A stretch of DNA of 64,000 nt, taken from contig JAPLQE010000073.1 of NCBI GenBank assembly GCA_026399835.1, positions 1 to 64,000 of the forward strand. Direction: 5' to 3'. The stretch comes from Burkholderiales bacterium. GTDB lineage: Bacteria; Pseudomonadota; Gammaproteobacteria; Burkholderiales; Burkholderiaceae_E. How positions within the stretch are numbered: the first letter of the stretch is position 1; each line of letters opens with the position of its first letter. The position numbers and the translations under genes were made by a program. Under the pieces are notes generated by a model that was given only the letters and a program-made list of their open reading frames with translations, was not told the origin of the DNA and did no database searches. Of the stretch, positions 46,772 through 61,852 are shown piece by piece.

Positions 46772-47952
46772 CCACCACCGTCGTCCGACCCGAGATCCCG
46801 CTGCTCGACCTCAAGGCGCAGTGGCGCGCACTGCGCGACGAGATCCTGCCCGCCATCGAGGCGGTCTGCGAGTCGCAGCACTTCATCCTCGGACCGAATG
46901 TCGCCGCGCTCGAGCGCGAGATCGCGGCCTACTCCCAGGCCGCGCACGGCATCGGCACCTCCTCGGGCACCGATGCGCTGCTGCTGGCGCTGATGGCGCT
47001 CGGCGTGGGGCCGGGCGACTCGGTGCTGACCTCGCCGTACAGCTTCTTCGCCACCGCCGGCACGATCGCACGGCTCGGCGCCCGGCCGATCTTCTGCGAC
47101 ATCGATGCCGACACCTGCAACCTCTCGCCCGCCGCGGTGCGCCAGACGATCGAGCGCGACTGCGAGCGGCGCGAAGGCGGCCTCTGGCACCGCCCGAGCG
47201 GCACGCGGGTGCGCGCGCTGATGCCGGTCCACCTGTACGGGCAGTGCGCCGACATGGAGGCGCTCGTGCCGCTGGCGAGCGCGCACGGCCTGGCGGTGAT
47301 CGAGGACGCCGCGCAGGCGATCGGCGCCGAGATCGGCGGCGGGCGGCGCGCGGGCTCGCTCGGCACCATCGGCTGCTTCTCGTTCTTCCCGAGCAAGAAC
47401 CTCGGCGCCTTCGGCGACGCGGGCCTGTGCACCGCGGCCGACGCCGAACTCGCCGAGCGCATGCGGGTGCTGCGCGTGCACGGCGGCAAGCCGAAGTACC
47501 ACCATGCGCTGATCGGCGCGAACCTGAGGCTCGACGAGCTCCAGGCCGCGGTCCTGCGGGTCAAGCTCGCCCACCTCGACCGCTGGACCGAGGCGCGGCG
47601 CACCAATGCCGCCCGCTACGACGCCGCCTTCCGCGCAGCGGGCCTGGCCGGCACGATCGGCCTGCCGCGCGTGCGCGAAGGCGACCGCCATGTGTTCAAC
47701 CAGTACGTGATCCGCAGCCCGCGGCGCGACGCGCTGCGCGCCCACCTCGCCACCGAGCGCATCGGCACCGAGGTCTACTACCCGGTGCCGCTGCACCTGC
47801 AGGCCTGCTTCGCATCCCTCGGGCACGTGCCCGGCGACTGCCCGCAGGCCGAGGCCGCCGCGGCCTGCACGCTCGCGCTGCCGGTGCATCCCGACCTGCA
47901 GCCCGAGCAGCTCGACGCCGTCGTCGCCGCGGTCGCCGCCTTCCACGAATGA
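46768..47952 (+). CDS. wbpE: PLP sugar aminotransferase, DegT/DnrJ family (WbpE-like)
   Basis: Expected to convert UDP-3-keto-GlcNAcA to the 3-amino sugar with glutamate. The 394 residues show IPLLDLKAQWRALRDEILPA, GTSSGTDALLLALMALG (PLP phosphate loop), PVHLYGQCADMEAL, VIEDAAQAIGAE (Asp contacting the pyridine N), and FSFFPSKNLGAFGDAG with the Schiff-base lysine. NLRLDELQAAVLRVKLAHLD and YYPVPLHLQ complete the fold. A small charged insert (RREGGLWHRPSGT) is unusual. It overlaps both neighbours as ATGA. Confidence 0.92.
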   Translation: MTTTVVRPEIPLLDLKAQWRALRDEILPAIEAVCESQHFILGPNVAALEREIAAYSQAAHGIGTSSGTDALLLALMALGVGPGDSVLTSPYSFFATAGTIARLGARPIFCDIDADTCNLSPAAVRQTIERDCERREGGLWHRPSGTRVRALMPVHLYGQCADMEALVPLASAHGLAVIEDAAQAIGAEIGGGRRAGSLGTIGCFSFFPSKNLGAFGDAGLCTAADAELAERMRVLRVHGGKPKYHHALIGANLRLDELQAAVLRVKLAHLDRWTEARRTNAARYDAAFRAAGLAGTIGLPRVREGDRHVFNQYVIRSPRRDALRAHLATERIGTEVYYPVPLHLQACFASLGHVPGDCPQAEAAAACTLALPVHPDLQPEQLDAVVAAVAAFHE

Positions 47953-49076
47953 GCGCACGCGTCGTCCACGTCGTCGGTGCCCGACCCCAGTTCCCGAAGC
48001 TGGGGGTGGTGCTGCGCGCGCAGGCGGCCGCCGGCGACGCCGAGCCGCTGGTGGTGCACACTGGCCAGCACTACGACCCGGCGCTGTCGGACGCCTTCTT
48101 CGAGGAGCTGGGGCTGCCGGCCCCGGTCGCCGCGCTCGCGATCGGCTCAGGCCCGCACGGTCAGCAGACCGGCCGGATGCTCGAGGCGATCGAGCGCTCG
48201 CTGATCACGCTGCGCCCCGATGCGGTCGCGGTCTACGGCGACACCAACTCCACGCTCGCCGGCGCGCTCGCGGCGACCAAGCTCGGCATCCCCTGCGCGC
48301 ATGTCGAGGCCGGCCTGCGCAGCTTCGATCGCCGGATGCCCGAGGAGCTGAACCGGGTCGCCGTCGACCACCTGTGCGACCTGCTGTTCGCCCCGACCGC
48401 GACCGCGCGCGAGCGCCTCGAGCTCGAGGGCCTGGGCGCGCGCGCCGTGCTGAGCGGCGACGTGAGCGCCGAGGCGGTGCTGCATGCCGAGCGGCTCGCC
48501 GAGGCGCGCTCCCGCATCCTCGAGACGATGGGCCTCGCGCCGGGGCGCTACGCGCTCGCTACGCTGCACCGGGCCGAGAGCACCGGGGAGGCGGCGCTGC
48601 CGGGCCTGCTGAGCGCCCTCGAGGGCGCCGCCCGGCGCCTGGGCATGCTGGTGCTGCCGATGCATCCGCGCACCGCCGCCGCGATCGACGCGCGCCGGCC
48701 CGGCTGGCCCGCGGCGGCTGCCGGCGCGGGCGTGCGCATCGTCGAGCCGCTCGGGCCCCTGGACTTCCTGCGCCTGGCCGGCCACGCGTCGATGGTGCTG
48801 ACCGACTCCGGCGGCCTGCAGAAGGAAGCCTTCCTGCTGGGCGTGCCCTGCGTGACGCTGCGCGCGAGCACCGAGTGGGTCGAGACGATCGACTGCGGCG
48901 CCAACCTCCTCGCCACCGACGCACTGTCGGTGGACGACGCGATCTCGCGTCACCTCGCCGCCCCCGGCGAGCGCGCCTCGCGGCGCGCCCTGGCACTCGA
49001 ACTCTACGGGGCAGGCCGCGCCGGTGCGCGGATCGCCCATGGTCTCGGAACCCTGAGCATGGAAGGACGGACATGA
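47949..49076 (+). CDS. wbpI: UDP-N-acetylglucosamine 2-epimerase family (WbpI/WecB-like)
   Basis: A non-hydrolysing 2-epimerase that makes a mannosamine-type sugar from the glucosamine form. The 375-residue GT-B-fold protein has HVVGARPQFPKLGVVLRAQ, VHTGQHYDPALSDAFFEELG, VYGDTNSTLAGALAA, HVEAGLRSFDRRMPEELNR, TLHRAESTGE and TDSGGLQKEAFLLGVPCVTL. In the surrounding gene set it would act last, turning UDP-GlcNAc3NAcA into UDP-ManNAc3NAcA; alternatively it acts on UDP-GlcNAc. It overlaps the aminotransferase (ATGA) and the oxidoreductase (ATGA). Confidence 0.92.
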   Translation: MSARVVHVVGARPQFPKLGVVLRAQAAAGDAEPLVVHTGQHYDPALSDAFFEELGLPAPVAALAIGSGPHGQQTGRMLEAIERSLITLRPDAVAVYGDTNSTLAGALAATKLGIPCAHVEAGLRSFDRRMPEELNRVAVDHLCDLLFAPTATARERLELEGLGARAVLSGDVSAEAVLHAERLAEARSRILETMGLAPGRYALATLHRAESTGEAALPGLLSALEGAARRLGMLVLPMHPRTAAAIDARRPGWPAAAAGAGVRIVEPLGPLDFLRLAGHASMVLTDSGGLQKEAFLLGVPCVTLRASTEWVETIDCGANLLATDALSVDDAISRHLAAPGERASRRALALELYGAGRAGARIAHGLGTLSMEGRT

Positions 49077-50131
49077 CGGCACGCGACACGGTCGGACTCG
49101 CCCTCGTCGGGATCGGCGGCTGGGGCCGCAACCTCGCCCGCAACATCGACGGGCTGCGCGACGCGCGGCTGCGCTGGATCTGCGACGTCGACGAGCGCAG
49201 GCTCGCCGAGGCCGCCAAGCAGTATCCGGAGGCGCGCACCACGCGCCGCCTGGGCGAGGTGCTGGACGATCCGGCGGTCGATGCGGTGGTGGTCGCCACC
49301 CCCGCGCCCACCCACCACGCGATCGGCAGGATGGTGCTGCGCGCGGGCCGCGACCTGTACCTCGAGAAGCCGATGGTGCTGGACCTGGCCCATGGCGTGG
49401 AGCTGCTGCGCCTGGCCGAGGCCGGCCGGCGCGTGCTGATGGTCGGCCACCTGCTCGAGTACCACCCGGTGGTCCGGCGCCTGCGCGACATGATCCAGGC
49501 GGGCGAGCTCGGCACCATCCACTACATCGCCACGCAGCGGCTGAACCTCGGGACCATCCGCGAGGACGAGAACGTGCTGTGGAGCTTCGCGCCGCACGAC
49601 GTGTCCTCGATCCTCTACATGCTCGGGCAGGAGCCGACCGACGTCTCGGCCCGCGGCCAGGCCTGCGTGAACCGCGGTGTCGAGGATGTCGCCTTCATGA
49701 CGATGCGCTTCGGCGACCGGTCGATGGCGCATGTCCACGTGAGCTGGCTCGACCCGCACAAGACCCGCAAGATGACCATCGTCGGCAGCCGGCGGATGGC
49801 GGTGTTCGACGACCTGGAGTCGACCGAGAAGCTGCGCATCTACGACAAGGGCGCCGACGTCCGCACCGACTACGACGGGTTCGCCGAGTACACCGGCCTG
49901 CGCTTCGGCGACATCCTGGTGCCGCACATCCCGTTCACCGAGCCGCTGCGCGTCGAAGTGCAGCACTTCGTCGATTGCGTGCGCACCCGTGCCACCCCGG
50001 TAAGCGACGGTCACGACGGGCTGCGCGTGCTGCGCGTGCTCGAGGCCGCCGAGCGCTCGCTGCGCAGCGGCGGCCAGCCGATGGCTCCGGCCGCGCTGCC
50101 CGAGCCGGCCCCCGAGACCCTCCCGGCCTGA
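49073..50131 (+). CDS. wbpB: Gfo/Idh/MocA sugar oxidoreductase (WbpB-like)
   Basis: An NAD-dependent dehydrogenase expected to oxidise C3 of UDP-GlcNAcA. The 352 residues comprise the Rossmann domain VGLALVGIGGWGRNLARNID, VVVATPAPTHHAIGRMVL, the conserved YLEKPMVLDLAHG with its catalytic lysine, and the alpha/beta domain with VGHLLEYHPVVRRLRDMI, THYIATQRLNLG-like HYIATQRLNLGTIREDENVL, and FAPHDVSSILYMLG. These blocks match WbpB/WlbA enzymes closely. It lies between the 2-epimerase and the sugar dehydrogenase genes. Confidence 0.9.
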   Translation: MTARDTVGLALVGIGGWGRNLARNIDGLRDARLRWICDVDERRLAEAAKQYPEARTTRRLGEVLDDPAVDAVVVATPAPTHHAIGRMVLRAGRDLYLEKPMVLDLAHGVELLRLAEAGRRVLMVGHLLEYHPVVRRLRDMIQAGELGTIHYIATQRLNLGTIREDENVLWSFAPHDVSSILYMLGQEPTDVSARGQACVNRGVEDVAFMTMRFGDRSMAHVHVSWLDPHKTRKMTIVGSRRMAVFDDLESTEKLRIYDKGADVRTDYDGFAEYTGLRFGDILVPHIPFTEPLRVEVQHFVDCVRTRATPVSDGHDGLRVLRVLEAAERSLRSGGQPMAPAALPEPAPETLPA

Positions 50132-50162
50132 CGCCCCGCCCCCCCAGACAGGAGCCCCGCCC

Positions 50163-51884
50163 ATGCCGCTTCGATTCACCTCCGAGCACGACGCCGACTG
50201 GTCGGTGCGCAAGATCGCCGTCGTCGGTCCCGGCATCGTCGGCATGCCGATGGCCGCGCTGCTCGCCCATGCGCGCATCCGCGAGGGGCACGACGCCCCG
50301 GCCCGCGTCGTCGTCGTGCAGCGCGACTCGCCCACCTCCGGCTGGAAGGTCGACGCGATCAACCGCGGCGAGTCGGTGATCGGCGGCGTCGAGCCCGCGC
50401 TCGACGCGATCGTGCGCGACTCGGTCGCCGAGGGCGTGCTGTCGGCCACCCACGACTGGAACGACGTCGCCGACGCCGACCTGGTGCTGGTCTCGGTGCA
50501 GACCGACCGCGATGGCGACGGCCCCGACTACGGCCCGCTGATGGAGGCGCTCGGGCACCTGGCCCGCGCGCTGGCCAGCAAGCCGGCGGGCAACGTGCCG
50601 GTGGTGGTGTTCGAGTCCACCCTGGCGCCGTCGACGATGGCCACCGTGATCCGCGAGCACTTCGCCCGCCACGGCCTGGTCGAGGGGCGCGACATCCTGC
50701 TCGGCAACAGCCCGAACCGCGTGATGCCCGGTCGCCTGGTGGAGCGGGTCGCCCGCTCCGACAAGCTGATCGCCGGCCTGCACCCGCTGACGCCGGTGCT
50801 GGTGTCGCGCATCTACGCGCGCATCGTCACCGAGGGTGTGCTGCACCGGACCAACAGCCTGTCGGCCGAGGTGGTCAAGACGCTGGAGAACGCCTACCGC
50901 GACGTGCGGATCGCGTTCGCCGCCGAGGTGGTCCGCTGGTGCGATGCGAACGACGTCGACTTCTACGCGGTGCGCGACGCGGTGAACGCGCGGATCGCGC
51001 AGGCCGACGACGCCTCCTCGTCGGCCACCGCCGTGCCCAGCGGGGGCGTGCTGGTGCCCACCATCGGCGTCGGCGGCCATTGCCTGCCCAAGGACGGCGT
51101 GCTGCTGTGGTGGCGCGCCCGCGAGGCCGGCATGGATGTCTCGCGCAGCCTGATCCTGCTGGCCCGCACGATCAACGACGAGTCGCCCGCCGCCTCGGTC
51201 GCGCATGCGGAGCGGCGCTTCGGGCAGGTCGACGGCCGTCGGGTCGCCCTGCTGGGGGCGGCCTACCGCTTCGACTCCGAGGACACCCGCAACGCGCCGA
51301 CGCTGGCGCTCGGCCGGGCGCTGCGCGCGCGCGGCTGCACGGTCACGATCCACGATCCGTACGTGAAGCCGGACGACCAGAACCTCGCGCGCACCGGGCT
51401 CGCCGACTGCTTCTCGAACGATCTCGGCGCGACGCTGGCCGAGGCCGAGTGGGTGGTGATGTGCACCGGCCACGGCGTCTACCAGCACGGGCTCGACGCC
51501 ATCCTCGCGGCCGCGCCGCGTGCGCGCGTGCTGCTCGACGGGGCGAACCTCTATCCGGCCTCGGCCTTCGCGGGACGTGCGATCGGGCACGTCGGCATCG
51601 GTCGCGGCGTCAAGGCGCCGGAGCCCGCGTTCGTCGCCTTCGTCGAGCGCTCGTTCCGCGCGATGGAGCACGGCGTCGGCAACGAGCTGGATGCGCTGCT
51701 GAGCTTCCTGAACGGGCGCTTCGCTCCGGACGGCTTCAACGCGGTCTCGCTCGACGAGGTCCGCCGCCTCGCCGACACCTGCCCGACCGGCTGCGCGATC
51801 GCGCCGCCTTCGGCGACGCTGGACGTGCCGGTGCATGCGGGCTTCTCGCTGCGGCTGACCCGCGCCGCCGCCGGGCTCGGGTGA
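50163..51884 (+). CDS. Nucleotide-sugar dehydrogenase with C-terminal extension
   Basis: UDP-glucose/GlcNAc/ManNAc dehydrogenase family; here it would make UDP-GlcNAcA as the first step of the diaminouronate pathway. The 573 residues have KIAVVGPGIVGMPMAALLAH (loop GPGIVGMP, 22-29), SVQTDRDGDGPDYGPLMEAL, FESTLAPST (150-158), LENAYRDVRIAFAAEVV, catalytic Cys307 in GVGGHCLPKDGVLLWWRA, and AAYRFDSEDTRNAPTLALG. The family is usually about 420-440 residues; the excess is a C-terminal tail of roughly 105 residues (FVERSFRAMEHGVGNELDAL and onward) that I do not recognise, plus a shorter insertion in the first domain. The stop overlaps the next start (GTGA). Confidence 0.88.
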   Translation: MPLRFTSEHDADWSVRKIAVVGPGIVGMPMAALLAHARIREGHDAPARVVVVQRDSPTSGWKVDAINRGESVIGGVEPALDAIVRDSVAEGVLSATHDWNDVADADLVLVSVQTDRDGDGPDYGPLMEALGHLARALASKPAGNVPVVVFESTLAPSTMATVIREHFARHGLVEGRDILLGNSPNRVMPGRLVERVARSDKLIAGLHPLTPVLVSRIYARIVTEGVLHRTNSLSAEVVKTLENAYRDVRIAFAAEVVRWCDANDVDFYAVRDAVNARIAQADDASSSATAVPSGGVLVPTIGVGGHCLPKDGVLLWWRAREAGMDVSRSLILLARTINDESPAASVAHAERRFGQVDGRRVALLGAAYRFDSEDTRNAPTLALGRALRARGCTVTIHDPYVKPDDQNLARTGLADCFSNDLGATLAEAEWVVMCTGHGVYQHGLDAILAAAPRARVLLDGANLYPASAFAGRAIGHVGIGRGVKAPEPAFVAFVERSFRAMEHGVGNELDALLSFLNGRFAPDGFNAVSLDEVRRLADTCPTGCAIAPPSATLDVPVHAGFSLRLTRAAAGLG

Positions 51885-52861
51885 GCCGCACGCGCACGCT
51901 CGTCTCGCTCGCGCTGGGGGCGCTCGCCAGCGCCGCCTACCTGGCGGTGGTGGCGCACGGCATCTCGCTCGAGGCCCTCGCACGGGCCTTCGCATCGGTC
52001 GACCCCCTGCCCTGCGCCCTCTACGTGGCGGGCTTCGCGGTCGTGATGCGGGCGCGCGCCGAGCGCCTGGCGGCCTCGCTCGCGCCGCTGCGGCCCACCC
52101 GCGCGGCGCAGGTCATGCCCTCGCAGATGGCCGGCTACCTCGCCAACTTCGTGCTGCCGATGCAGGCCGGCGAGCTCGCCCGGATCGCGGTCGCCGTGCG
52201 CGGGCTGGGCGTGCCGGCCGGCGCGATGGTCTCGGCGATGGCGCTCGAGCGGGTCGTCGACCTGCTGTTCGCACTCACCGCGCTCGCGCTGGCCGCGGCC
52301 CTGCTGCCGGCGCCGTCCGCACCGGTGCTCTGGCAGGTCGGCCTGGCGATCGGCGCCGCGGTTGCAGGGGCCCTCGGGGGCCTCGCCTGGGCGACGCTGC
52401 GGCCGGCCGCGATGCGCCGCACCGTCGCCGTGGTCGCCGCACGCCTGCCCGCCGGCCTGGGCGGCGTGCTGCGCAGCCAGGCCGATGCCTGCTGCGACGG
52501 CCTGGCCGTGCTGCGCGACCCGGCCTTCCTCATGCGCTATCTCGGCTGGTCGGTGCTGCAGTGGCTGGGCTGGGTGGCCAGCGTGGCCGCCACGCTCCTT
52601 GCGGCCGGCATCGAGGTCGAGGCGGCGACGACCGTCCTCTGCAGCGCGCTGGCCACGCTCGCGCTGGCGCTGCCCGCGGCCCCGGGCTACGTCGGCAGCT
52701 TCCAGCTCGCCTATCACTGGGCGCTGGCGCCGGCGGGTGTCGATCCCGCCGCCGGCTTCGTCGCCGCGACGCTGCTGCAGGTCCTGACGATCGGCTGCGC
52801 GCTGGTCACCGCGGCGGGCGTGGCCCTCGCGCCCCGGCTCAGCCGAGCGCGGCCCGTGTAG
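51881..52861 (+). CDS. Lysylphosphatidylglycerol-synthase-type membrane protein (UPF0104)
   Basis: A polytopic inner-membrane protein of 326 residues with about eight predicted helices, of the LPG_synthase_TM family that includes the flippase half of MprF and AglD-like proteins. SQMAGYLANFVLPMQAGELARI is the conserved N-x-x-P-x-x-x-G-E signature, and PAAPGYVGSFQLAYHWAL is the second family block. In glycan clusters it may move a lipid-linked product. It starts at GTG overlapping the dehydrogenase stop. Its 3' end overlaps the convergent DUF1839-like gene by 23 bp. Confidence 0.87.
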   Translation: MSRTRTLVSLALGALASAAYLAVVAHGISLEALARAFASVDPLPCALYVAGFAVVMRARAERLAASLAPLRPTRAAQVMPSQMAGYLANFVLPMQAGELARIAVAVRGLGVPAGAMVSAMALERVVDLLFALTALALAAALLPAPSAPVLWQVGLAIGAAVAGALGGLAWATLRPAAMRRTVAVVAARLPAGLGGVLRSQADACCDGLAVLRDPAFLMRYLGWSVLQWLGWVASVAATLLAAGIEVEAATTVLCSALATLALALPAAPGYVGSFQLAYHWALAPAGVDPAAGFVAATLLQVLTIGCALVTAAGVALAPRLSRARPV

Positions 52862-53843
52862 CCTGCAGCCCCTCGCCGCGGGCGCGCCCGATCGACTCGA
52901 GGGCCGGACGCGGATCCCAGGGCTTGCGGACGACGACCACGCGCGCGGCCTTGAGCACCATCGACTTGGTCTCGACCGAGACCCGCTCGAACGCCGCCGC
53001 CGCGTCGGCGAGCGGACCCGGGCGGCCGTCGGCGAGCCAGCCGAGGTGCAGCGCGCCGAGCTCGGCGGCGCTGCCGAGCTGGCGCAGCGTCGCGAACGCC
53101 CAGGCGTGATAGGCCTCGGGCCCCTCGTCCACCAGCGCCGCGAGGTCCGCGCCGATGCGCTCGGCGAAGGCTTCGACCGGATCGCGCGCCGGCAGCCGCT
53201 CGAGATGCGTGGCGAGCAGGCCGAGCGCCTGCGTGCGCAGCACGGCGTCCGGCCGACGCTCGCACCGATCGAGCCTCAGCAGCTCGGCGTACAGCGGCAG
53301 CGCGCGACGGGTCTGCGGCCCGCCCAGCCCGAGCGCGCCGTCGAAGTCCTCGCCCTCGAGCTCGAAGTAGCCGGCGTTGTGGAAATACCCCAGGCGCCGC
53401 GCCGCGGCGTCGACCGCGGCCACCACGATCGTCGTCTTCGCATGCTGGCGCCGGTAGTCGGTGCCGGCGACGTCGGGCAGATAGAAGGCGTCGGCCTCGG
53501 TGCTCACCAGGTGGCCGGCGCCCACGTGCTCGGCGAGGTGGACGTCGAGCGGACGCCAGAGGTTGAGCTCGCGCACGTCGATGCCGTAGAGCGCCCGGAC
53601 CTCGTCGTGCGAGGGCTTGTAGAAGGTCCACTGGTCGCCCTCGAAATCGAGCGCGAGCGTGGTGCCGAGCATGGCGCGCGGCTCGAGTCCGAGTGCGCCG
53701 AGCAGCTCGATCCAGACGTCGACGTAGCAGTTCTTCTCGACCCAGGTCCGCTCGGGCGCGTGCAGCGCGTGCGGGCGGTGCGCGGCGGTGTCGAGCGAGG
53801 GCAGCGCCGGATGGCGCGCGAGCGAGGCGGCGCTCACGGCCAC
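52839..53843 (-). CDS. DUF1839-like protein linked to aminoacyl-carrier-protein genes
   Basis: A 334-residue cytosolic protein of unknown function. HALHAPERTWVEKNCYVDVWIELLGALGLEP, in pieces at about 26-56, then DFEGDQWTFYKPSHDEVRALYGIDV, EADAFYLPDVAGTDYRRQHAKT and LGYFHNAGYFELEGEDFDGA are the conserved DUF1839 blocks, as I recall them. The cysteine, aspartate and histidine content of the NCYVD and QHAKT segments suggests a papain-like or transglutaminase-like acyltransferase fold, but this is a guess. It is the last gene of the minus-strand carrier-protein operon and overlaps the ligase stop by 10 nt, so it probably acts on the aminoacyl-carrier product. Confidence 0.82.
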   Translation of the reverse strand: MAVSAASLARHPALPSLDTAAHRPHALHAPERTWVEKNCYVDVWIELLGALGLEPRAMLGTTLALDFEGDQWTFYKPSHDEVRALYGIDVRELNLWRPLDVHLAEHVGAGHLVSTEADAFYLPDVAGTDYRRQHAKTTIVVAAVDAAARRLGYFHNAGYFELEGEDFDGALGLGGPQTRRALPLYAELLRLDRCERRPDAVLRTQALGLLATHLERLPARDPVEAFAERIGADLAALVDEGPEAYHAWAFATLRQLGSAAELGALHLGWLADGRPGPLADAAAAFERVSVETKSMVLKAARVVVVRKPWDPRPALESIGRARGEGLQATRAALG

Positions 53844-54739
53844 AGGCGTGCGCGCACGTCCGTCGGCCAGTCGCCCGTCTCGAAGCCGTGCGTGCGGAAC
53901 AGGGCCATCGTGACCCGCTCCAGCCCGTAGCCGATGCAGGCGGTGTGCGCCACCTCACCGTCGTCGCTGCGGATGTCGAACATCGCGCCGAACTTGTCGT
54001 GGTGCACGTTGAAGGAGCCGACCGCGGTCGGGCGCTCGGCCGAGATCACCGGCACCAGCAGCTCGTACTTGAGCTTCTGCTCCTGCTGGCTGGCGGCGAG
54101 GAAGCGCCCGGCGCGTCCGAAGAACGGGTCCGAGGCGACGTCCACGCGGATCGGCAGCCCGAGCCCGCGCAGCAGCGCCGTGCCGCGCTCGAGCCAGTCG
54201 TCGCGCCAGGCCATCACCTCGTCGGGCCGCCCCGCGCGCACGAACTCGCGCACCCGGTACGACTGCATGCGGGTCGGCTCGCGCGAGGGCTCGTGCCGAT
54301 AGACCCAGTTGGTCGCGGTGATCAGCCGCCCGCCCGCGGGCAGCGTGCCGGACAGCGTCGGATAGACCGGGTAGCAGGCCGAGGGGTTGAGCACCACCGA
54401 GGTGGCCCCAAGCAGATCCTCGTAGGGCTCGCCGGCGTGCACGCGATCGGACAGGCGGCGCGCGGCACGCTCGTCGCCGAAGAAGCTCTGCACGCAGCCG
54501 CACAGGTTCGGGAACGAGCCGAGGTAGCCGACGCGCTCGAGCAGCGTGCGGTCGATGACCGGCGGGAAGCAGGTCAGCTCGGGCACCTGCGGCGCGGCGG
54601 TGGCGCCCGCGAGCGCGTTGAAGCGCTCGAGCACGTCCTCGAACACCGCGCCGCGCCCGAACACGCCGGGCACCCCAGACGGCAGGATCAGCCGGTGCGC
54701 CAGGAGTCCCTGCAGGAACAGCTCGCCTTCTTCGTCCAT
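53834..54739 (-). CDS. Amino acid:carrier-protein ligase (SerRS-like)
   Basis: A stand-alone class II aminoacyl-tRNA-synthetase-like enzyme that activates an amino acid with ATP and loads it on the phosphopantetheine arm of a carrier protein, not on tRNA. The 301 residues hold a catalytic core with motif 2 (NWVYRHEPSREPTRMQSYRV, then REFVRAG) and motif 3 (IGYGLERVTMALFRTHG), but no tRNA-binding arm. Cys122 (NPSACYPVY), Glu165 or Glu150 and Cys268 (HTACIGYG) are candidates for the zinc site that, in archaeal-type SerRS and its carrier-protein ligase relatives, selects small amino acids such as glycine or alanine. The carrier protein gene lies 6 kb upstream in the same operon. The family is established in Bradyrhizobium and Agrobacterium. 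Confidence 0.9.
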   Translation of the reverse strand: MDEEGELFLQGLLAHRLILPSGVPGVFGRGAVFEDVLERFNALAGATAAPQVPELTCFPPVIDRTLLERVGYLGSFPNLCGCVQSFFGDERAARRLSDRVHAGEPYEDLLGATSVVLNPSACYPVYPTLSGTLPAGGRLITATNWVYRHEPSREPTRMQSYRVREFVRAGRPDEVMAWRDDWLERGTALLRGLGLPIRVDVASDPFFGRAGRFLAASQQEQKLKYELLVPVISAERPTAVGSFNVHHDKFGAMFDIRSDDGEVAHTACIGYGLERVTMALFRTHGFETGDWPTDVRARLWP

Positions 54740-54770
54740 CGTCGCTCCGCGTCGCGTCGCCGCGCGCCGG

Positions 54771-56018
54771 TCAGTCGTCCTTGTGGATCAGGAGCATCGT
54801 GGCGGTCTTCGACGCGATGCGCTCGTTGGCCACCATCAGCGACGCGGACAGCACGTCGCGGTACTGCCGACCCACCGCGTAGCGCGAGTCGTTGCGGTAG
54901 CCCTGGATGCCGATCACCTGCAGCGCACGATGCACGATCCGCGGAGCGGCCTCGGAGCTCGCGATCTTCAGGTTGTTCATCTTCAGCGCCCAGCCGAGGG
55001 TCGCCAGGCCGCCGCCGTCGCCCTCGAGGGCCAGGCGGTCGAACTCGCGGGCGAGCGACTGCCAGTGGTGGCGCATCGTCTGCAGCTCGACCGACACCTC
55101 GGCCAGGCGCGAGGCCATCGGCGGCACGGTGCCCGGCATGCGGCGCGCCTCGGCACGCACGAAGGCCGAGGCCCGCGCCACCGCGTCGGCGGCGATGCCG
55201 GTCCAGACGCCCGACCACAGGATGTGCGAGCTCGGCACCATGGTGAGCGCCGAGACGTCGGCATAGGGCACCGGCACGACCTGCTCCGGGCGCCCGTCGA
55301 AGCGCACCCGGAAGCCGGGGCTGCAGGTGCCGCGCATGCCCATCGGATCCCAGTTCGCGGTCCTCTCCAGGTGCAGCCCGGCGCGCGGGGCGTAGACGAT
55401 CACCTGGTCGCTCGAGGCCGCGTCGATGTCGCGGCGGGCAGTGATCAGCATCGCGTCCGAGTGCTCGGCATACGAGATGGTGGTCGCGTCCTTGTCGATG
55501 GCGATCGCGTCGCCGCTCGGGACGACCGCGCAGCGGCTGCTGCGGGTGTCGCCGCCGACGCCGACCTCGGAGGTCACCGACGCGAGCAGCAGCTGGCGCT
55601 CGCAGAGTTCGCGCAGCACGCCCGCGAAGTACGCCGAGCCCGCGGTGTGGCGAACCAGGCAGGCGACCTGGATGTGGTGCATCGCGAGCACCATGCCGCT
55701 CGCGCCGCAGCCCTGGGCGAGCGCAGCGCACTGGTCGGCGAGCGCAGCCATCCCGCAGCCCGAGCCGCCGTAGGCCACCGGCACGGCGGCCGACAGCGCG
55801 CCCGCCTCGCGCAGCGCGGCGAAGGTCTCCTCGGGGAAGCGCCCGCGCGCGTCGACGTCGGCCGAATGCTGCGCTGCCACCTCGGCCGCGATCGCGCGGA
55901 TCCGCGCGAGCAGCGTGTCGGCGTCGGGTGCCGCGGCAGCAGCGGTCGAGTCGTTCCGGCGCTGCGGTCCATGAGCCATTCGTTCGCGTCCTGACTGTGT
56001 CGACAAAACCATGTCCAC
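54771..56018 (-). CDS. Acyl-CoA-dehydrogenase-like flavoprotein
   Basis: An FAD-dependent acyl-CoA dehydrogenase relative of 415 residues, probably acting on an aminoacyl- or acyl-carrier-protein thioester. GRFPEETFAALREAGALSAA opens the helical domain, LASVTSEVGVGGDTRSSRC covers the flavin region, DPMGMRGTCSPGFRVRF the beta domain, and ALQVIGIQGYRNDSRYAVGR with QYRDVLSASLMVANERI the C-terminal helices. The catalytic-Glu loop of many family members (YEGTSEI) is replaced by MVANERI, so chemistry may differ or the base lies elsewhere. ATGs at 56018, 56012 and 55979 are all possible starts. The ligase gene starts 31 nt downstream. Confidence 0.85.
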   Translation of the reverse strand: MDMVLSTQSGRERMAHGPQRRNDSTAAAAAPDADTLLARIRAIAAEVAAQHSADVDARGRFPEETFAALREAGALSAAVPVAYGGSGCGMAALADQCAALAQGCGASGMVLAMHHIQVACLVRHTAGSAYFAGVLRELCERQLLLASVTSEVGVGGDTRSSRCAVVPSGDAIAIDKDATTISYAEHSDAMLITARRDIDAASSDQVIVYAPRAGLHLERTANWDPMGMRGTCSPGFRVRFDGRPEQVVPVPYADVSALTMVPSSHILWSGVWTGIAADAVARASAFVRAEARRMPGTVPPMASRLAEVSVELQTMRHHWQSLAREFDRLALEGDGGGLATLGWALKMNNLKIASSEAAPRIVHRALQVIGIQGYRNDSRYAVGRQYRDVLSASLMVANERIASKTATMLLIHKDD

Positions 56019-56058
56019 GGAGCTTCGCGAATGCGGCGCGGCGAAGCGATGACGGATC

Positions 56059-56736
56059 TCACGCCGGGGGCGACAAACCGCCTGTCGCGGCGTCGCGGAC
56101 CCGCCTGACGAGCCGGCGCAAGCCGCGCCAGGCGGCGAGCGGAATGGCGTGCCCGCCGTCGAACATCACCCGGTCGACCCGGGCCCCGGCGGCTTCCAGG
56201 TCGTCGGCGAGACGCCCGGCCGCCTCGGGCGCCAGGTCGGGATCATCGCGCCCGTGCGCGACCAGCACTGGACGACCGCGCAGCCGCGGCATCGCCGGCA
56301 GCCAGTCGTCGTACGTCAGGCGCGAGCCCGACAGCACCGCGAGTCCGTCGATGGGCCGTAACCCGCGTAGCGCATGGTCGCAGGCCAGCATGGCGCCCTG
56401 CGAGAAGCCGCCGACCACCAGCGGGCGGCCCGGATGCTCGGCGCACAACCGTGCCAGCGTGGCCTCGAAACGCTCGCGCGCCGCGTCCAGCCCGGCCGGC
56501 CGATCGGCGGCCAGGTCGCGCGGGCCCCGCGCCCGCGCCCGGCTGCGGGCCGCCTCGTCCACCCACCACCAGCCGTGCGTGCCGTCGGGCAGCTCGACCG
56601 GCCCTGCCGGGAAGACCCAGGTGCCGCCCGCGCCGATCGACGCGGCGAACGGCGACAGCGCCTGCGGCCGCATCGCCCAGCCGTGCAGCAGCACGACCAG
56701 CGGTCCCGGCCCGAGCTCGACGAGCGCCTCGCCCAA
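56059..56736 (-). CDS. Small serine esterase (phospholipase/carboxylesterase type)
   Basis: An alpha/beta-hydrolase of 225 residues: LVVLLHGWAMRPQALSPFA (oxyanion region), nucleophile elbow GGFSQGAMLACDHAL, VLVAHGRDDPDLAPEAAGRL (acid) and FDGGHAIPLAAWRGL (His). All triad residues are present, and the size fits the carboxylesterase/YpfH group. No ATG fits the fold: the next in-frame ATG (WAM) would cut the first strand. I chose TTG at 56736, which overlaps the preceding gene; CTG at 56751 is an alternative. It could release the product from the carrier protein (type II thioesterase role), which is inference from its operon. Confidence 0.82.
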   Translation of the reverse strand: MGEALVELGPGPLVVLLHGWAMRPQALSPFAASIGAGGTWVFPAGPVELPDGTHGWWWVDEAARSRARARGPRDLAADRPAGLDAARERFEATLARLCAEHPGRPLVVGGFSQGAMLACDHALRGLRPIDGLAVLSGSRLTYDDWLPAMPRLRGRPVLVAHGRDDPDLAPEAAGRLADDLEAAGARVDRVMFDGGHAIPLAAWRGLRRLVRRVRDAATGGLSPPA

Positions 56737-56747
56737 GGCCGGCCCGC

Positions 56748-58664
56748 TCAGCGCCCGGTCTCGAGCGCGGGCTCGCGCGGGGCGGCGGTGCCGGCGCCGC
56801 AGGTGCCGCCCGGGGCGCAGGGCGCGCCCGCGGCCGCGCATGCGGCGCAGGGCGTGCCCAGCCGCGCCGCGACGACCGGCAGCAGGCGCTCGCGGGCCGC
56901 ACGGCGCGTGAACGTGTGGTCGGAGTCGGGCAGTTCCTGGAGCGTCAGCGCGCCGCGCGCGGCGAGCCGCCGCGCGGTCGCGCCACCGCCGAACTCGAGC
57001 AGCGCCGGTCCGGGCTCGTGGGCGGCGAACACGAAGTGCATCGGCACGCCGCGGCGCGCGACCGCCGAGAGCTCGGCCTCGAGGTCGTCGCCGATCGGCC
57101 GTCCGATGCGGCGCGCCAGCGCGCGCTGCGCCTTCGCGAGCGAGCCGGCCGCCCGCCGCGCGACGATCGACGCGATGTCGGCGACCGCCACCTCCCCGCG
57201 CACCACCCGCCGCCACGCCCCGGGCTTCGCCGCCGCGGTCTTGAGCCGGACCGCGTCGGCGATCATGCGGTGCTCGGCCTCTGGCCCGTCGGCGGCATCG
57301 CCATGCCAGAAGAAGGTCAGCGGATTGATCGCGACGATGCCCTGCACAGGCAGCCCCGCGACTGCCGCCTTGAACGCGTGGTAGGCGCCCGAGCACAGGC
57401 CGACCAGCCGGCAGCCGTCGGCCTGCGGCCAGGCACGCATCCAGTCCACCGCGACCGCGACCGATTCGAGCGCATCGGGTGCGTACACCACGCCGTCGGG
57501 GTCGCCCGGACGTGCCGGGCTGTCGCCCAGGCCGGGCAGGTCCAGCCGCAGCACCGGATGGCCGAGCGCGGCCAGACGCCGCGCGAGCATCACGGACAAG
57601 CGGCTCGGGCCGACTCGGTGTGCGGCGCCAGCGTTCAGGATCACCACGCCGGCGCGCCGCACCGCCGCCCGGCCCTCGGCCGGCTCGGCCAGCACGCCGA
57701 CGAGAGCGCGCTCACGTCCGAGCCGCAGGACACGTTCGACGTGCACGACGCCATCGGGGCCGACGATGCGGGCGGCGTCCGGGCCGTCCTGCGCCACGCC
57801 GCAGACCCGCCTGGAGGGCGAGTCGGACGTCGCCGCGCCGCGCGATGCGGCGGCGACCTCGGCCGTCCAGCGGACCACCGTCGCCAGCATCGGATGCGGC
57901 ACCTCGACCTCGTGCGGGTCGCGCATCATCGCGTCGGCGCCCTCGAAGCCCTGTACCTCCAGCCGCGCGCCGCCCTCGGCCAGGCGGGCCGCCCAGGCAT
58001 CGAGCCCGGCGGTGCGCCGCGCCTCGAGCACCAGCACCCGCGGCGGCAGGCGGCCCTCGAACGCACCGACGTCGATCGCCGCGAGCGCCTGCCAGGCGGC
58101 CTCGTCGAAGGCGCAGCCGCCGACCTCGTGCAGGCCGCGCGGGTCCGGCTCGGACACCGGCGCCGCCGCCATCGAGAACGCGCGCAGTTCGCGCACGAAC
58201 GCGCGCCCCGACAGCACCGGTGCGACGGCCACCAGCGCATCCACGTCGTCGCGTCCGGCCGCGACCCGTGCGGCCAGCGCGGCACCGAGGCGCACGCCCA
58301 GCAGGATCCAGCGCGACACCCCGAGGCGCACGGCGCCCGCGGCCATCGCATCGCGCACCGTGCGCAGCCAGGCCTCGAGCCGGTCCGGGTCGAGCTCGTC
58401 GCCGGCGGCGTCGCCGGTGCCGTCGTAGTCGAAACGGATCGCCGGCAGCCCGGCGCGTGCGAGCCCCTCGGCCAGCACCCGCAGCGTCCGGTGCACGCCC
58501 ATCGCCTCCGGGCCCACCGGCCCGCAGAGCAGCACCCCGGTGGCCGCGGCCGGGCCATCCGCCGCGGCCGCCGGCGGCCGATGCACCCAGCCGAGCGACG
58601 GGCGACCGGCGGGACCGAACCAGCCCGGCTCGGGCTCGGGGAGCGGGGCGGGCATGGGGCTCAT
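56748..58664 (-). CDS. Double alpha/beta-hydrolase fusion (exosortase-A hydrolase 2- and 1-like)
   Basis: A 638-residue protein with two hydrolase domains. Domain 1 (about 20-270): LLCGPVGPEAMGVHRTLRVL, AIRFDYDGTGDAAG, and an elbow reading LLGVRLGAAL, where Arg replaces the nucleophile (GVRLG, 123-127). Domain 2 (about 310-600): VVILNAGAAHRVGPSRLSVM, VLRLDLPGLGDSPA, and elbow VGLCSGAYHAF with Cys424 at the nucleophile position (GLCSG). The two domains resemble, from memory, the separate hydrolases 2 and 1 found next to exosortase A loci and acyl carrier proteins. A Cys-rich tail (TPCAACAAAGAPCAPGGTC) follows. The start at 58664 overlaps the glycosidase stop (ATGA); the esterase start overlaps its 3' end or lies 12 nt past it. 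Confidence 0.85.
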   Translation of the reverse strand: MSPMPAPLPEPEPGWFGPAGRPSLGWVHRPPAAAADGPAAATGVLLCGPVGPEAMGVHRTLRVLAEGLARAGLPAIRFDYDGTGDAAGDELDPDRLEAWLRTVRDAMAAGAVRLGVSRWILLGVRLGAALAARVAAGRDDVDALVAVAPVLSGRAFVRELRAFSMAAAPVSEPDPRGLHEVGGCAFDEAAWQALAAIDVGAFEGRLPPRVLVLEARRTAGLDAWAARLAEGGARLEVQGFEGADAMMRDPHEVEVPHPMLATVVRWTAEVAAASRGAATSDSPSRRVCGVAQDGPDAARIVGPDGVVHVERVLRLGRERALVGVLAEPAEGRAAVRRAGVVILNAGAAHRVGPSRLSVMLARRLAALGHPVLRLDLPGLGDSPARPGDPDGVVYAPDALESVAVAVDWMRAWPQADGCRLVGLCSGAYHAFKAAVAGLPVQGIVAINPLTFFWHGDAADGPEAEHRMIADAVRLKTAAAKPGAWRRVVRGEVAVADIASIVARRAAGSLAKAQRALARRIGRPIGDDLEAELSAVARRGVPMHFVFAAHEPGPALLEFGGGATARRLAARGALTLQELPDSDHTFTRRAARERLLPVVAARLGTPCAACAAAGAPCAPGGTCGAGTAAPREPALETGR

Positions 58665-61189
58665 GCGTCGATGCGGACGCGCCGCTCGGCGTTCGCGGCC
58701 TGCACCGTGCCGCGCAGCGGCGCCCCCGCGAACCGCGGGCGCAGGCCGACGTGGATCTCGCCGCCCGGCGGCAGGTGGAAGTGGCTGTCGTCCGGAACGT
58801 GCTGCGCGATGCGCACCGCGACCCAGCGCGCCAGGCGCTGCGTCCGGATGCGCAGGCCCGGTCGACCGTCGGCCAGGGGCGCGACCTCGACCGACATGCC
58901 GACGTCGCGCTCGGGGGCGCCGAGGCGCGGCTCGCACAGGTGCACCACGCGGTCGATCGGCGTGCCGTCGGCCGCGCGCAGCGTCGCGACCACCGCCTCG
59001 ATCGCGCGCGGCCCGAACCGGTAGGCATGGTTCAGGTCCTCGAAGCCGTCGAGCATCGCGACCGCGTCGAGCGCCGCCGACCCATGGGGCGCGACCTCGA
59101 TGCCGCGGCTCGCCGGCGCGCCCAGCCGCTCGCCGTCGCGCACGCGCTCGAGCTCGAGGGTGGCCGTCAGCGGCTCGGGGCCGTCGTTGAAGACATGCAG
59201 CCGAAGGCCGTCGCCACCGTGATCGGTGACTGCGACCGCACGCGGGCGCAGCGCCGCGCGCAGCAGGTGCCAGGCCGCCTTGGGCTCGCCGAGCTCGTCG
59301 AGCAGCCCCCAGCCGGCGCCCGCCCACAGGTCGCGCAGCGTCCATACCAGGCCGCCGCCACAGCGGGCGCCCCCGGTGCGCCAGCGCACGAAGGTCGAGC
59401 GCATCGCCTCGCCGGTCACGATGCGGCCGAGCTCGAGGTAGCGGTCATGGTCCTCGCGCCGCAGCGTCACCGGATCCACGCCGAACACGCTCGCCAGGTA
59501 GGCGTCGCGCACGTCGTCGAAGTCCCAGCCCGCCCCCAGGTCGCGCGGCGTGCGCGCGGCCCAGCCGGGATGGTGGACCCGTAGCCCCGCCCCGCCCGGC
59601 ATGCGCTCGAGCGCCACGGGCTCGGGCACGTTCGCGAACCCCAGGCACTCGGTGGCGAAGCGCACGTCGGCGACGCTCGCGTCGTCGAGCGGCCGCAGGT
59701 AGGCGCCGACGCCGTAGAACGACGTGGTGCCGCGGCCCGCCTGGTGCGGGAACGCCCCGCCCCACGCGCTCGACGGCCAGTACGGCACGCCGGGCACGCA
59801 CTCGGCGGCGAGCGCCTGCAGCACCGTGCCGAAGAGCGGCGGCGACCAGGCCTCGCGCGGCGCGCCCAGCATCGCCGCCTGCTGCGAGACCTCGCTGTTG
59901 CCGCACACCACCGCGACGCACGGCCGTCCGCGCAGCCGCGCGAGCTGCTCGCGCACCTCCCGCTCGACCGAGGCGAGGAAGGCCGGATCGTCGCCGGGAT
60001 AGTCGAGGTTGGCGAACATCAGGTCCTGCCAGACCAGCAGGCCCGCCGCGTCGCAGGCGTCGTACAGCGCCTCGTCCTCGTAGACCGTCGGACCGCACAC
60101 GCGCAGCATCGTGAAGCCCGCCTCGCGCGCCTGCCCGACCGCCGCCCGGTAGGCCTCGGCAGGCGCCGACAGGGCGACCGGGTCGAGCGGCATCCAGCAC
60201 GCGCCGCGGCAGAACACCGGCACGCCGTTGACCACCACGCGAAAGCCCTCGTCGGCGCGGTCGATCTCGATCGTGCGAAAGCCCACGGTGCCCAGCGCCA
60301 CCGGCAGCCCGGTCGGCCGGCCAAGCCCGGCCGCCGCCTGCACGCTCACGCGATGCAGCACCGGCTCGCCGTAGCCGTTCGGCCACCAGCGCCGCGCCGC
60401 CGGCACGACGAGCGCGCCCGCGAGCGTGCCATCCGCATCGCGCACCAGCGGTGCCCGCCACACCTGCTCGCCGACCTCGACCACCAGCTCCAGCGGGCCC
60501 GGCGCATCGAGCCGCCCGTGCACGCGGACGTGACCCGCGTCGCCGACCAGGCTCGCATCGACCGCGAACCCGGGCATCGGCTGCCCGTCGCTCGCCGTCT
60601 CCAGCCGCACCGGCCGCCACGGCCCGACCGGCGCCGCCGGCGGCGACCAGCCGGGCGTGCGCCCGAGCAGCGTCGTGCGCACGCGCCGCAGCTTCTGGTT
60701 CTCGACCATCGGCGCCCGCCAGCGCGGCCGCTCGCGCACCGCGGCGAGCGCCGCGTCGAGCGAGCGGAAGCGCAGCACGAGCTCGCACTCGGGCGCGGCC
60801 TGCGCAGGCAGCCTCACGCGATGGACGACGAACATGTTGTCGCTCGCCAGCACGTGGACACCGTCGATCCAGACGTCGGCCAGCGTCGCGAGCCCGTCCA
60901 GGCAGAGCACCTCGTGCTGCCCGTCGGTCACCGGCGAGCGCTCGATCCGGATGCGGAACCACCAGTCCAGCGCGTCGAAGCGCTCGGGCGGCGACGCGAG
61001 ACTCCAGTCGCCGAGCGCACGCCGCGCCGCCGCGACGGTGCAGGGCACGGTGGCCGCAGACCAGGTGCCCGGCATCGCGTCGACGGCCGACGGCTGCGCG
61101 CACGCCCCCGCCGCGGTCGAGCGGAACGACCAGCCTGTGTCGAGCGCCCGGCCGGCGCTGCCGTCAGAGGGGCGGCCGCGTCCGTGCAC
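58661..61189 (-). CDS. Glycoside hydrolase family 2, beta-mannosidase-like
   Basis: An 842-residue GH2-type enzyme: N-terminal jelly-roll sugar-binding domain (about 15-190; DWWFRIRIE, LDGLATLADVWIDGVHV, VENQKLRRVRTTLL), immunoglobulin-like domain, a TIM barrel from about residue 310 (FRVVVNGVPVFCRGACWMPL, MLRVCGPTVYED, WQDLMFANLDYPGD) and a C-terminal beta region. Glu433 in VCGNSEVSQQ is the likely acid/base and Glu514 in FATECLGFANVP the likely nucleophile. The N-S-E context differs from the usual N-E or N-N-E. There is no signal peptide, so it should be cytoplasmic. It starts at GTG 4 nt after the carrier-protein gene and overlaps the hydrolase by ATGA. The VPEP inside it is not a sorting signal. 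Confidence 0.88.
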   Translation of the reverse strand: MHGRGRPSDGSAGRALDTGWSFRSTAAGACAQPSAVDAMPGTWSAATVPCTVAAARRALGDWSLASPPERFDALDWWFRIRIERSPVTDGQHEVLCLDGLATLADVWIDGVHVLASDNMFVVHRVRLPAQAAPECELVLRFRSLDAALAAVRERPRWRAPMVENQKLRRVRTTLLGRTPGWSPPAAPVGPWRPVRLETASDGQPMPGFAVDASLVGDAGHVRVHGRLDAPGPLELVVEVGEQVWRAPLVRDADGTLAGALVVPAARRWWPNGYGEPVLHRVSVQAAAGLGRPTGLPVALGTVGFRTIEIDRADEGFRVVVNGVPVFCRGACWMPLDPVALSAPAEAYRAAVGQAREAGFTMLRVCGPTVYEDEALYDACDAAGLLVWQDLMFANLDYPGDDPAFLASVEREVREQLARLRGRPCVAVVCGNSEVSQQAAMLGAPREAWSPPLFGTVLQALAAECVPGVPYWPSSAWGGAFPHQAGRGTTSFYGVGAYLRPLDDASVADVRFATECLGFANVPEPVALERMPGGAGLRVHHPGWAARTPRDLGAGWDFDDVRDAYLASVFGVDPVTLRREDHDRYLELGRIVTGEAMRSTFVRWRTGGARCGGGLVWTLRDLWAGAGWGLLDELGEPKAAWHLLRAALRPRAVAVTDHGGDGLRLHVFNDGPEPLTATLELERVRDGERLGAPASRGIEVAPHGSAALDAVAMLDGFEDLNHAYRFGPRAIEAVVATLRAADGTPIDRVVHLCEPRLGAPERDVGMSVEVAPLADGRPGLRIRTQRLARWVAVRIAQHVPDDSHFHLPPGGEIHVGLRPRFAGAPLRGTVQAANAERRVRIDA

Positions 61190-61193
61190 GGGC

Positions 61194-61451
61194 TCAGGCC
61201 CCGACGAGATCCGTCAAGGCGGCGCGGATCGAGGCGATGCTGTCGAAGACGCTGCGCTTGAGCATCGCGTCGGGGAACTCGACGTCGAACTCGGCTTCGA
61301 GCGCGAGCATCACGTTGACGCTCGCGTGCGAGGTCATGCCCGCCTGGTAGAGGTCGTCGGTGCTCGCCAGCGAGGCGGCGTCGCGCGAGAGCCGGGCGTG
61401 CTCGACGAGCACGGTTCGGATGCGCGGATCGAGGTCTTGCGGATCGTTCAT
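61194..61451 (-). CDS. Acyl (aminoacyl) carrier protein
   Basis: An 85-residue acidic four-helix carrier protein. DDLYQAGMTSHASVNVMLAL carries the phosphopantetheine site at Ser41, in the GMTSHAS context rather than the GxDSL of fatty-acid ACP. This context is typical, from memory, of the carrier proteins charged by stand-alone amino acid:carrier-protein ligases. LEAEFDVEFPDAMLKRSVFD forms helix 3. The start overlaps the acpS stop (ATGA), which means modifying enzyme and substrate are made together. Confidence 0.9.
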   Translation of the reverse strand: MNDPQDLDPRIRTVLVEHARLSRDAASLASTDDLYQAGMTSHASVNVMLALEAEFDVEFPDAMLKRSVFDSIASIRAALTDLVGA

Positions 61452-61852
61452 CGGGGCACTCGCTCTTCGGGGACTCGGTCTCGGCGATCGACGACGACGA
61501 CCGCAGCCGCGTAGTCGCCGTCGTGGGTGAGGCTCAGCGCGATTGCGTTGGCGCCGAGGGCATCGGCCTGACGTCGTGCGGCGCCGTGGAGCCGCAGCGT
61601 GCAGTGGCCGTCGGCCGCGCGGCGCACTTCCATGTCCGTCCAGGCGACACCGGTATCCGTCAGGCCGAGGGCCTTGATGGTCGCCTCCTTGGCGGCGAAG
61701 CGGGCGGCCAGGCGCTCCGGCATCCGCACCGGGTCGACGCCCGCATCGGCGATCTCGCCCGCCGTGTAGACCCGCGCCAGATACCGCTCGCCGAAGCGCT
61801 CGAGCGAGGCGCGAACACAGGGCACGTGGATGAGGTCGATTCCGGCTCGCAT
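61448..61852 (-). CDS. acpS: Holo-ACP synthase-type phosphopantetheinyl transferase
   Basis: Transfers 4'-phosphopantetheine from CoA to the serine of the carrier protein. The 134 residues show RAGIDLIHVPCVRASLERFG with the Mg-binding Asp6, ARFAAKEATIKALG with the second Mg-binding Glu, and ALSLTHDGDYAAAVVVV at the end, all features of the AcpS trimer fold. It is the first gene of the eight-gene minus-strand operon. Its position suggests a dedicated enzyme for the adjacent carrier protein; the usual acpS neighbours (pdxJ, recO) are absent, so a housekeeping copy probably lies elsewhere. Confidence 0.92.
   Translation of the reverse strand: MRAGIDLIHVPCVRASLERFGERYLARVYTAGEIADAGVDPVRMPERLAARFAAKEATIKALGLTDTGVAWTDMEVRRAADGHCTLRLHGAARRQADALGANAIALSLTHDGDYAAAVVVVDRRDRVPEERVPR

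Follow-up and report, generated by a model that had tools for sequence, protein, structure and literature searches.

Ligases that resemble seryl-tRNA synthetase (SerRS) reportedly put small amino acids onto carrier proteins, a finding credited to Mocibob and colleagues in 2010. A note in proof by Iyer and Aravind (2010; PMC2922099) listed a gene neighbourhood in which such a ligase is accompanied by an acyl carrier protein (ACP), a redox enzyme, the open reading frame (ORF) Atu2574, a glycosidase and liposaccharide genes. For the conserved ORF it put forward a role in making an amide between an amino acid and a cell-surface amino sugar. The Atu2574 of that note is taken here as the DUF1839 protein. 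A passage of a 2022 review still gives the role of these ligases as unknown (PMC9437257). We analyzed a stretch of 64,000 nucleotides from a Burkholderiales bacterium (contig JAPLQE010000073.1, positions 1 to 64,000; hereafter the window), in which a SerRS-like ligase, its carrier protein and a DUF1839 protein belong to one operon of eight genes.

The window locus shares ACP, redox enzyme, conserved ORF, glycosidase and glycan genes, as well as the predicted chemistry, with the neighbourhood in the 2010 note in proof; its AcpS (holo-ACP synthase), double hydrolase, esterase and DUF1839 fold match go beyond the passages that describe it there, as do the split into two ligase groups and the affinity to Myxococcota (PMC2922099). 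The operon represents a real conserved pathway whose neighbourhood has been known since 2010; with eight genes, an AcpS and an esterase of its own among them, the form seen here is a variant. The initial annotation of the window had proposed an undescribed pathway; this claim is not supported, since in the pertinent passages the neighbourhood and the amide-to-amino-sugar idea were in print in 2010 (PMC2922099) and the DUF1839 fold in 2023 (PMC10318531). Apart from the novelty, the analysis supports the amino acid route that it outlined, in which loading is followed by transfer to a glycan or a small molecule. The main advance is the match of the predicted DUF1839 fold, which would tie this family to carrier-dependent amide-forming enzymes and reduce the open question to one assayable reaction with two or three proteins. 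The pathway would give the tRNA-synthetase fold a part in the tailoring of glycans or natural products, both in Myxococcota and in Proteobacteria that live in soil or with plants.

Beyond PMC2922099, PMC10318531 and PMC9437257, a search for the function or name of the cassette, which left subscription journals mostly uncovered, returned only expression mentions. In the passages concerned, expression of bll0957/bll0958 is up in a phaR mutant (PMC10888616) and Atu2573 is a co-expression hub (PMC11941606). The literature searched for the cassette and its parts yielded no pathway product in print.

A travelling cassette and its loading module

All eight genes are encoded on the minus strand (61852-52839) with intergenic spacings of -10 to +40 nt (Table 1). 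AcpS and carrier protein genes overlap by 4 nt, as do those for the GH2 glycosidase and the double hydrolase, and the ligase and DUF1839 genes overlap by 10 nt; an alternative start of the gene for the acyl-CoA-dehydrogenase-fold (ACAD-like) flavoenzyme at 55979 (instead of 56018) would widen one gap to 79 nt. The co-directional arrangement with overlaps or gaps of at most about 80 nt, described in the initial annotation, was thus borne out.

Table 1. Features of the window, beginning with the eight genes of the cassette in order of transcription
Feature	Position	Strand	Evidence and remarks
Holo-ACP synthase (AcpS)	61448..61852	-	PF01648; TIGR00516 66.8 vs 59.8; TIGR00556 also passed
Aminoacyl carrier protein	61194..61451	-	NF005480 100.1 vs cut-off 72; Ser41 is the phosphopantetheine site
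GH2 beta-mannosidase-like glycosidase	58661..61189	-	N-terminal PF22666; Glu433, Glu514
Double alpha/beta hydrolase	56748..58664	-	TIGR03101-like and TIGR03100-like halves, both under cut-off
Carboxylesterase-like alpha/beta hydrolase	56059..56736	-	PF02230; TTG start at 56736 uncertain
ACAD-like flavoenzyme	54771..56018	-	PF02771/PF00441
SerRS-like amino acid--[carrier protein] ligase	53834..54739	-	NF005479 381.8 vs cut-off 357
DUF1839 papain-like transferase (predicted)	52839..53843	-	PF08893 329.7 vs 22.5; Cys39, Thr138, His155
LPG_synthase_TM membrane protein	51881..52861	+	Convergent; 3' end overlaps DUF1839 gene by 23 nt
Five-gene amino-sugar module	46211..51884	+	Acetyltransferase, aminotransferase, UDP-GlcNAc 2-epimerase, UDP-sugar 3-dehydrogenase-like, NDP-sugar 6-dehydrogenase
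XrtA exosortase fused to EpsI domain	35724..37271	-	TIGR03109 253.6 vs 208; TIGR02914 63.4 vs 42.8; outside cassette

The ligase scored over the cut-off in 4/369 genomes of the class, 8/300 of the order and 21/299 of the phylum sample, and the cassette is present in 4/12 genomes of the genus (all counts include the window's own genome). Relatives also came from plasmids (93 records, 14 of which were fetched). Altogether 57 loci were examined, 54 of them distinct (L049-L051 repeat L009-L011). They were picked from hits and are no random sample: they comprise eight loci from genome contigs, all over-cut-off genome hits outside the genus, three sub-cut-off hits and the 14 plasmid records, and some are near-copies (L060 and L105).

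The initial annotation had named scattering of these genes in related genomes as an argument against a single system. Instead, genes for the ligase, the ACAD-like protein, DUF1839 and GH2 were clustered in 39 of the 54 distinct loci (GH2 being cut by the contig end in four), and ten further loci have the ligase-ACAD part only. The double hydrolase is also present in the stretch in 24 of the 39 (4 on the other strand). The remaining five loci are one cut by the contig end (L048), three with sub-cut-off ligases (L052, L053, L118) and one second DUF1839 copy (L117). DUF1839 was detected in 7/300 genomes of the order, and all seven carry an over-cut-off ligase; the eighth ligase genome (L042) belongs to the DUF1839-less group. 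Pairwise distances of ligase, ACAD-like protein, DUF1839 and GH2 correlate at 0.87-0.89 (36 loci), to which shared species history contributes. The eight genes are one travelling cassette.

On plasmids of Alpha- and Betaproteobacteria and in the other genomes of the phylum the usual order is carrier protein, ACAD, ligase, DUF1839, GH2, double hydrolase. Myxococcota show the order ACAD, ligase, DUF1839, (GNAT), AcpS, carrier protein, GH2, (double hydrolase), esterase. In the window the order runs AcpS, carrier protein, GH2, double hydrolase, esterase, ACAD, ligase, DUF1839; it corresponds to the set of the Myxococcota with the two halves swapped. Among the loci examined, the esterase occurs only in the window's genus (L009-L011) and in Myxococcota (L013-L015). 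In a combined ligase and ACAD tree (50 rows, quick method, support by Shimodaira-Hasegawa-like approximate likelihood ratio test only) the genus groups with five Myxococcota/delta rows with a support of 99; next to join is a same-order row on a long branch (L045), which also has an AcpS. The GNAT acetyltransferase gene between DUF1839 and AcpS was identified with Pfam in L014 (11865-12506), genes of similar size are present in L015 and L016, and the window operon has none.

Residues 13-297 of the 301 aa ligase align with amino acid--[ACP] ligase 1 (4h2w, E 1.2e-77), and the solved homologues 4h2w/3mey match at E about 1e-77. The protein has no tRNA-binding domain, and an NF005480 carrier protein is encoded in the same operon. 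Cys122, Glu165 and Cys268 are kept in 54/54 rows, three sub-cut-off rows among them (residue counts here and below omit rows that fall short of 75% of the length of the window protein); placed by alignment to 4h2w, they are presumably the Zn ligands of the aSerRS catalytic core. The carrier protein matches the solved aminoacyl carrier protein 4h2w_C and Atu2571/2jq4, and its Ser41 is invariant (46/46 rows). The solved pairs from Bradyrhizobium and Agrobacterium (4h2s-4h2y, 3mey, 2jq4) are therefore clear homologues with Zn ligands and Ser intact here, whereas the operon around the window pair comprises eight genes, an AcpS and an esterase among them. This AcpS is the second of the genome, a better-scoring one being encoded on contig C61, and is probably dedicated to the operon carrier protein. 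From its close homology, the ligase almost certainly loads an amino acid onto that carrier protein; by homology, we take its substrate to be of the glycine/alanine type. Six alignment columns, unmapped to the pocket and kept out of any amino acid prediction, distinguish the two ligase groups. Taken together, arming, loading and co-inheritance of the cassette are well supported.

The DUF1839 protein and the flavoenzyme

A structure model of the DUF1839 protein was computed with AlphaFold2 (AF2) from 9 sequences (predicted local distance difference test, pLDDT, 75.8; predicted template modelling score, pTM, 0.81). A Foldseek search with this model returned 17 matches at E<=0.001, all of them chains of CtaG (8), CcbD (6) or AziU2-U3 (3), with TM-scores of 0.51-0.60 and identities of 9-17%; the next match was Alr0975, a relative of phytochelatin synthase, at E=0.54. 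We take CtaG to act on carrier-bound acyl groups in closthioamide synthesis. CcbD, according to the relevant passage of PMC12945683, takes carrier-bound proline onto its own Cys and hands it to the amine of an amino-octose in a Cys ping-pong mechanism. DUF1839 shares with CcbD/LmbD and CtaG the predicted fold, the carrier-protein context and the Cys nucleophile, and differs from them in its low identity in the aligned models and in lacking a sequence-profile match.

Candidate active-site residues were counted in 42 copies, namely 40 alignment rows plus the L043 copy and the cassette copy of L055, which were read separately: Cys39 is present in 40, Thr138 in 40 and His155 in 42, and the L043 protein retains all three. 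The CtaG residues given in PDB titles (C11, H128, D144) are spaced like C39, T138 and H155, with His and its partner swapped. In the passage on DUF1839, the 2023 survey describes a papain-like fold with a Cys-Thr/Ser-His triad, for which glycan processing was guessed (PMC10318531). Thr/Ser thus occupies the usual place of His, and His stands in exchange, unlike in CcbD and CtaG (PMC10318531, same passage). Since the places of Thr138 and His155 are exchanged relative to the canonical Cys-His-acid order of CcbD/CtaG-type transferases, we file the protein as DUF1839 and not as a CcbD family member, though it may work alike. DUF1839 is probably a carrier-dependent acyl/amide transferase, and amide transfer is supported by the modelled fold together with the conserved residues. 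The fold match also supports, from a predicted structure, the amide proposed in the 2010 note in proof, by a route that its authors did not use there (PMC2922099).

Several observations weigh against this assignment. The Foldseek superpositions have root mean square deviations of 5.8-7.3, a DUF1839 profile run against solved structures found no PDB chain at E<=1, and the alignment behind the model is shallow (9 sequences), with low-confidence loops near the active site. Moreover, the cassette proteins of two sister loci, L040 from the same order as the window and L055 from Cupriavidus metallidurans CH34, lack Cys39 and Thr138. Both genomes encode a second DUF1839 copy with all three residues (L117 in genome G534, which also holds L040, and a reverse-strand copy in L055); the two copies may divide the labour, or the second may rescue a loss in the first. 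These loci weaken a strict Cys rule, yet every genome examined keeps a Cys-bearing copy. At the position of Thr138 the two cassette copies carry a Cys.

For the flavoenzyme, the known catalytic Glu positions of MCAD/SCAD and IVD were placed as sites 396 and 264 by reading alignments. The MCAD-type site is Ile/Val and the IVD-type site Ser/Ala/Thr/Cys in 50/50 rows each, so that neither holds a catalytic Glu; His265, Trp268 and Trp272 are invariant. Profile matches to solved structures comprise dehydrogenases as well as amino-sugar nitrososynthases (DnmZ, 3mxl), and another match, 3m9v, is presumably KijD3. The structure model (pLDDT 75.3) has the monooxygenase DszC at Foldseek rank 1; monooxygenases and dehydrogenases intermix in the ranks, which speaks against a firm assignment. 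Because both dehydrogenase Glu positions are absent, we infer that dehydrogenation is no likelier than oxygenation. That the enzyme oxidizes the carrier-bound amino acid is somewhat favoured.

Proposed route, its acceptor and competing explanations

In the route that we propose, AcpS would arm the carrier protein, and the ligase would adenylate a small amino acid and load it. The flavoenzyme would then oxidize the bound amino acid by N- or C-oxygenation or by dehydrogenation. As in the CcbD step of lincosamide synthesis, Cys39 of DUF1839 would accept the acyl group and hand it to an amine, and an amide would result. Within the genus, an amino sugar of the 2,3-diamino-uronic acid type, from the surface-glycan pathway encoded next to the cassette, would be the likeliest acceptor. 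Acyl groups that have stalled might be edited or released by the esterase and the Cys-dependent double hydrolase, and GH2, which resembles beta-mannosidases, might trim or transfer a manno-configured sugar in the cytoplasm; these roles of GH2 and the hydrolases are guesses. For the sequence as a whole (loading, oxidation and amide transfer to an amino sugar in a self-contained aminoacyl-carrier-protein pathway) we regard the chances as even, and for the amino sugar as acceptor as a little short of that. Rather unlikely in its full detail is a lincosamide-synthetase-like glycan decoration, in which DUF1839 would join an oxidized (e.g. N-hydroxylated or dehydro) amino acid to a 2,3-diamino-mannuronic-acid-type amine and give an aminoacyl-amide polysaccharide, with loading by a tRNA-synthetase relative and without tRNA or nonribosomal peptide synthetase (NRPS) modules.

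The acceptor is suggested by the surroundings. To the left of the operon are genes for the XrtA exosortase, a Wzy-like protein, a glycosyltransferase, a bacterial sugar transferase, a chain-length protein and a deacetylase, and next to it lies the five-gene amino-sugar module. By analogy with the Wbp pathway, the module would give UDP-ManNAc3NAcA by way of an intermediate with a free amine; it looks sufficient for a UDP-2,3-diacetamido-mannuronic-acid-type sugar. An ortholog of its sugar dehydrogenase (95-100%) is found in 4/4 species of the genus that have the cassette and in 0/8 of those that lack it. L049 and L050, the two with enough contig, also show synteny of the block. Glycan genes also accompany the cassette in the Myxococcota loci L013 (GT2, acyltransferase 3) and L014 (a deacetylase homologue), and six cassette loci (L013, L039, L040, L043, L055, L120) gave hits to the bacterial sugar transferase encoded in the window. 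A Shinella record carries an O-antigen ligase and GumC some 6-8 kb from the cassette, and two Azospirillum records contain alpha-galactosidase and beta-glucosidase genes some 6-9 kb from it.

Other findings count against a glycan acceptor or the route as a whole. As the four species with the cassette appear to be closely related, the perfect co-occurrence may be one event and was counted as one association. Beside cassettes outside the genus no module homologues were found except a distant UDP-sugar dehydrogenase match in L043, and the acetyltransferase of the module could have capped the sugar amine beforehand. Cassettes on Azospirillum, Rhizobium, Phyllobacterium and Caballeronia plasmids have no adjacent annotated glycan-synthesis gene, in annotation that is incomplete. 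Finally, ligase and ACAD occur without DUF1839 or GH2 in 10/54 loci.

The same chemistry might instead end in the secretion of a small natural product, either an amide or a glycoside, which GH2 and the hydrolases would unmask or recycle; we consider this possible and yet doubtful. The plasmids with a complete cassette and no adjacent annotated glycan-synthesis genes fit this explanation, as do the genes for major facilitator superfamily (MFS) or ATP-binding cassette (ABC) transporters in plasmid stretches, which are of differing kinds and in one record, for example, directly precede the carrier gene. The passage on CcbD likewise places this structural match in an antibiotic pathway (PMC12945683). 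Against it, the cassette itself has no export gene, in the window's own genus it lies within a polysaccharide locus, and the two Myxococcota loci named above have glycan genes. CtaG and AziU2-U3 are, as we assume, also from antibiotic pathways.

It is improbable that DUF1839 is a thioesterase or deacylase, so that the cassette merely oxidizes and releases amino acids and GH2 is an unrelated passenger. A papain-like fold is compatible with hydrolysis too, the double hydrolase owns a Cys triad, and both the DUF1839-less loci and the loss of Cys from the cassette copies of L040 and L055 would be in line with such a role; the significant DUF1839 Foldseek matches, however, are not proteases, and in 39/39 loci that hold both ligase and DUF1839 GH2 belongs to the cluster (in four it is cut by the contig end); GH2 is also co-inherited.

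Hardly credible is a role of the operon in the exosortase-A system, readying PEP-CTERM proteins or their glycan anchor: it lies about 15 kb from XrtA and its hydrolase halves are similar to TIGR03100/03101, but TIGR03100 reaches its cut-off in 0/12 species of the genus, homologues of the window exosortase (E < 1e-50) occur in 7/12 species, of which 4 are cassette-less, none is seen in one cassette-bearing species (75% complete), and the annotation of the stretches in the eight annotated plasmid records lists no exosortase. Since the exosortase does not track the cassette, partnership with it was rejected as a general role, and the exosortase link drawn in the initial annotation is weak, also in view of the plasmid cassettes.

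Hydrolases of the cassette and related loci

The nearest solved relatives of GH2 are the beta-mannosidases 5n6u and 2je8. Glu433 and Glu514, present in 37/37 rows, align with a Glu pair of the Bacteroides enzyme 2je8, which we take to be acid/base and nucleophile; the substrate could also be a beta-glycoside other than a beta-mannoside. A simple hydrophobicity scan of the N-termini revealed no apparent signal peptide.

The halves of the double hydrolase score 111 and 70.8 against cut-offs of 168.45 and 202.75 (TIGR03100/TIGR03101). Their resemblance to exosortase-A hydrolases 1 and 2, pointed out in the initial annotation, is thus real as distant kinship; both halves stay under the cut-offs and are fused into a single protein here. 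The C-terminal half keeps Cys424, Asp/Glu550 and His583 in 26/26 rows each, and the N-terminal half lacks a nucleophile, with Arg (19) or Gly (7) at the expected position. In a cassette-less congener (G002:C124:14900-16533), tandem TIGR03100-like matches of 77 and 70 bits, both sub-cut-off, lie in separate frames.

The ten ligase-ACAD loci without DUF1839 (L042, L107-L109, L111-L116) are read as another pathway that has the loading half in common with the cassette. Eight of them have a carrier-protein hit on the opposite strand. A Cys/Met-metabolism-type pyridoxal phosphate (PLP) gene lies nearby in 3/4 of those with gene calls (L042, L114, L115; Pfam for L115 only), L115 also has a homoserine O-succinyltransferase, and AMP-binding enzymes are among the neighbours of the group. 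Near the sub-cut-off ligases L118, L052 and L053 no other cassette genes were found. L118 (genome G772) and L082-L090 are examples of a second ligase-like group from several families of the phylum, with about 145-175 bits to NF005479 and ORFs of mostly about 400-480 aa.

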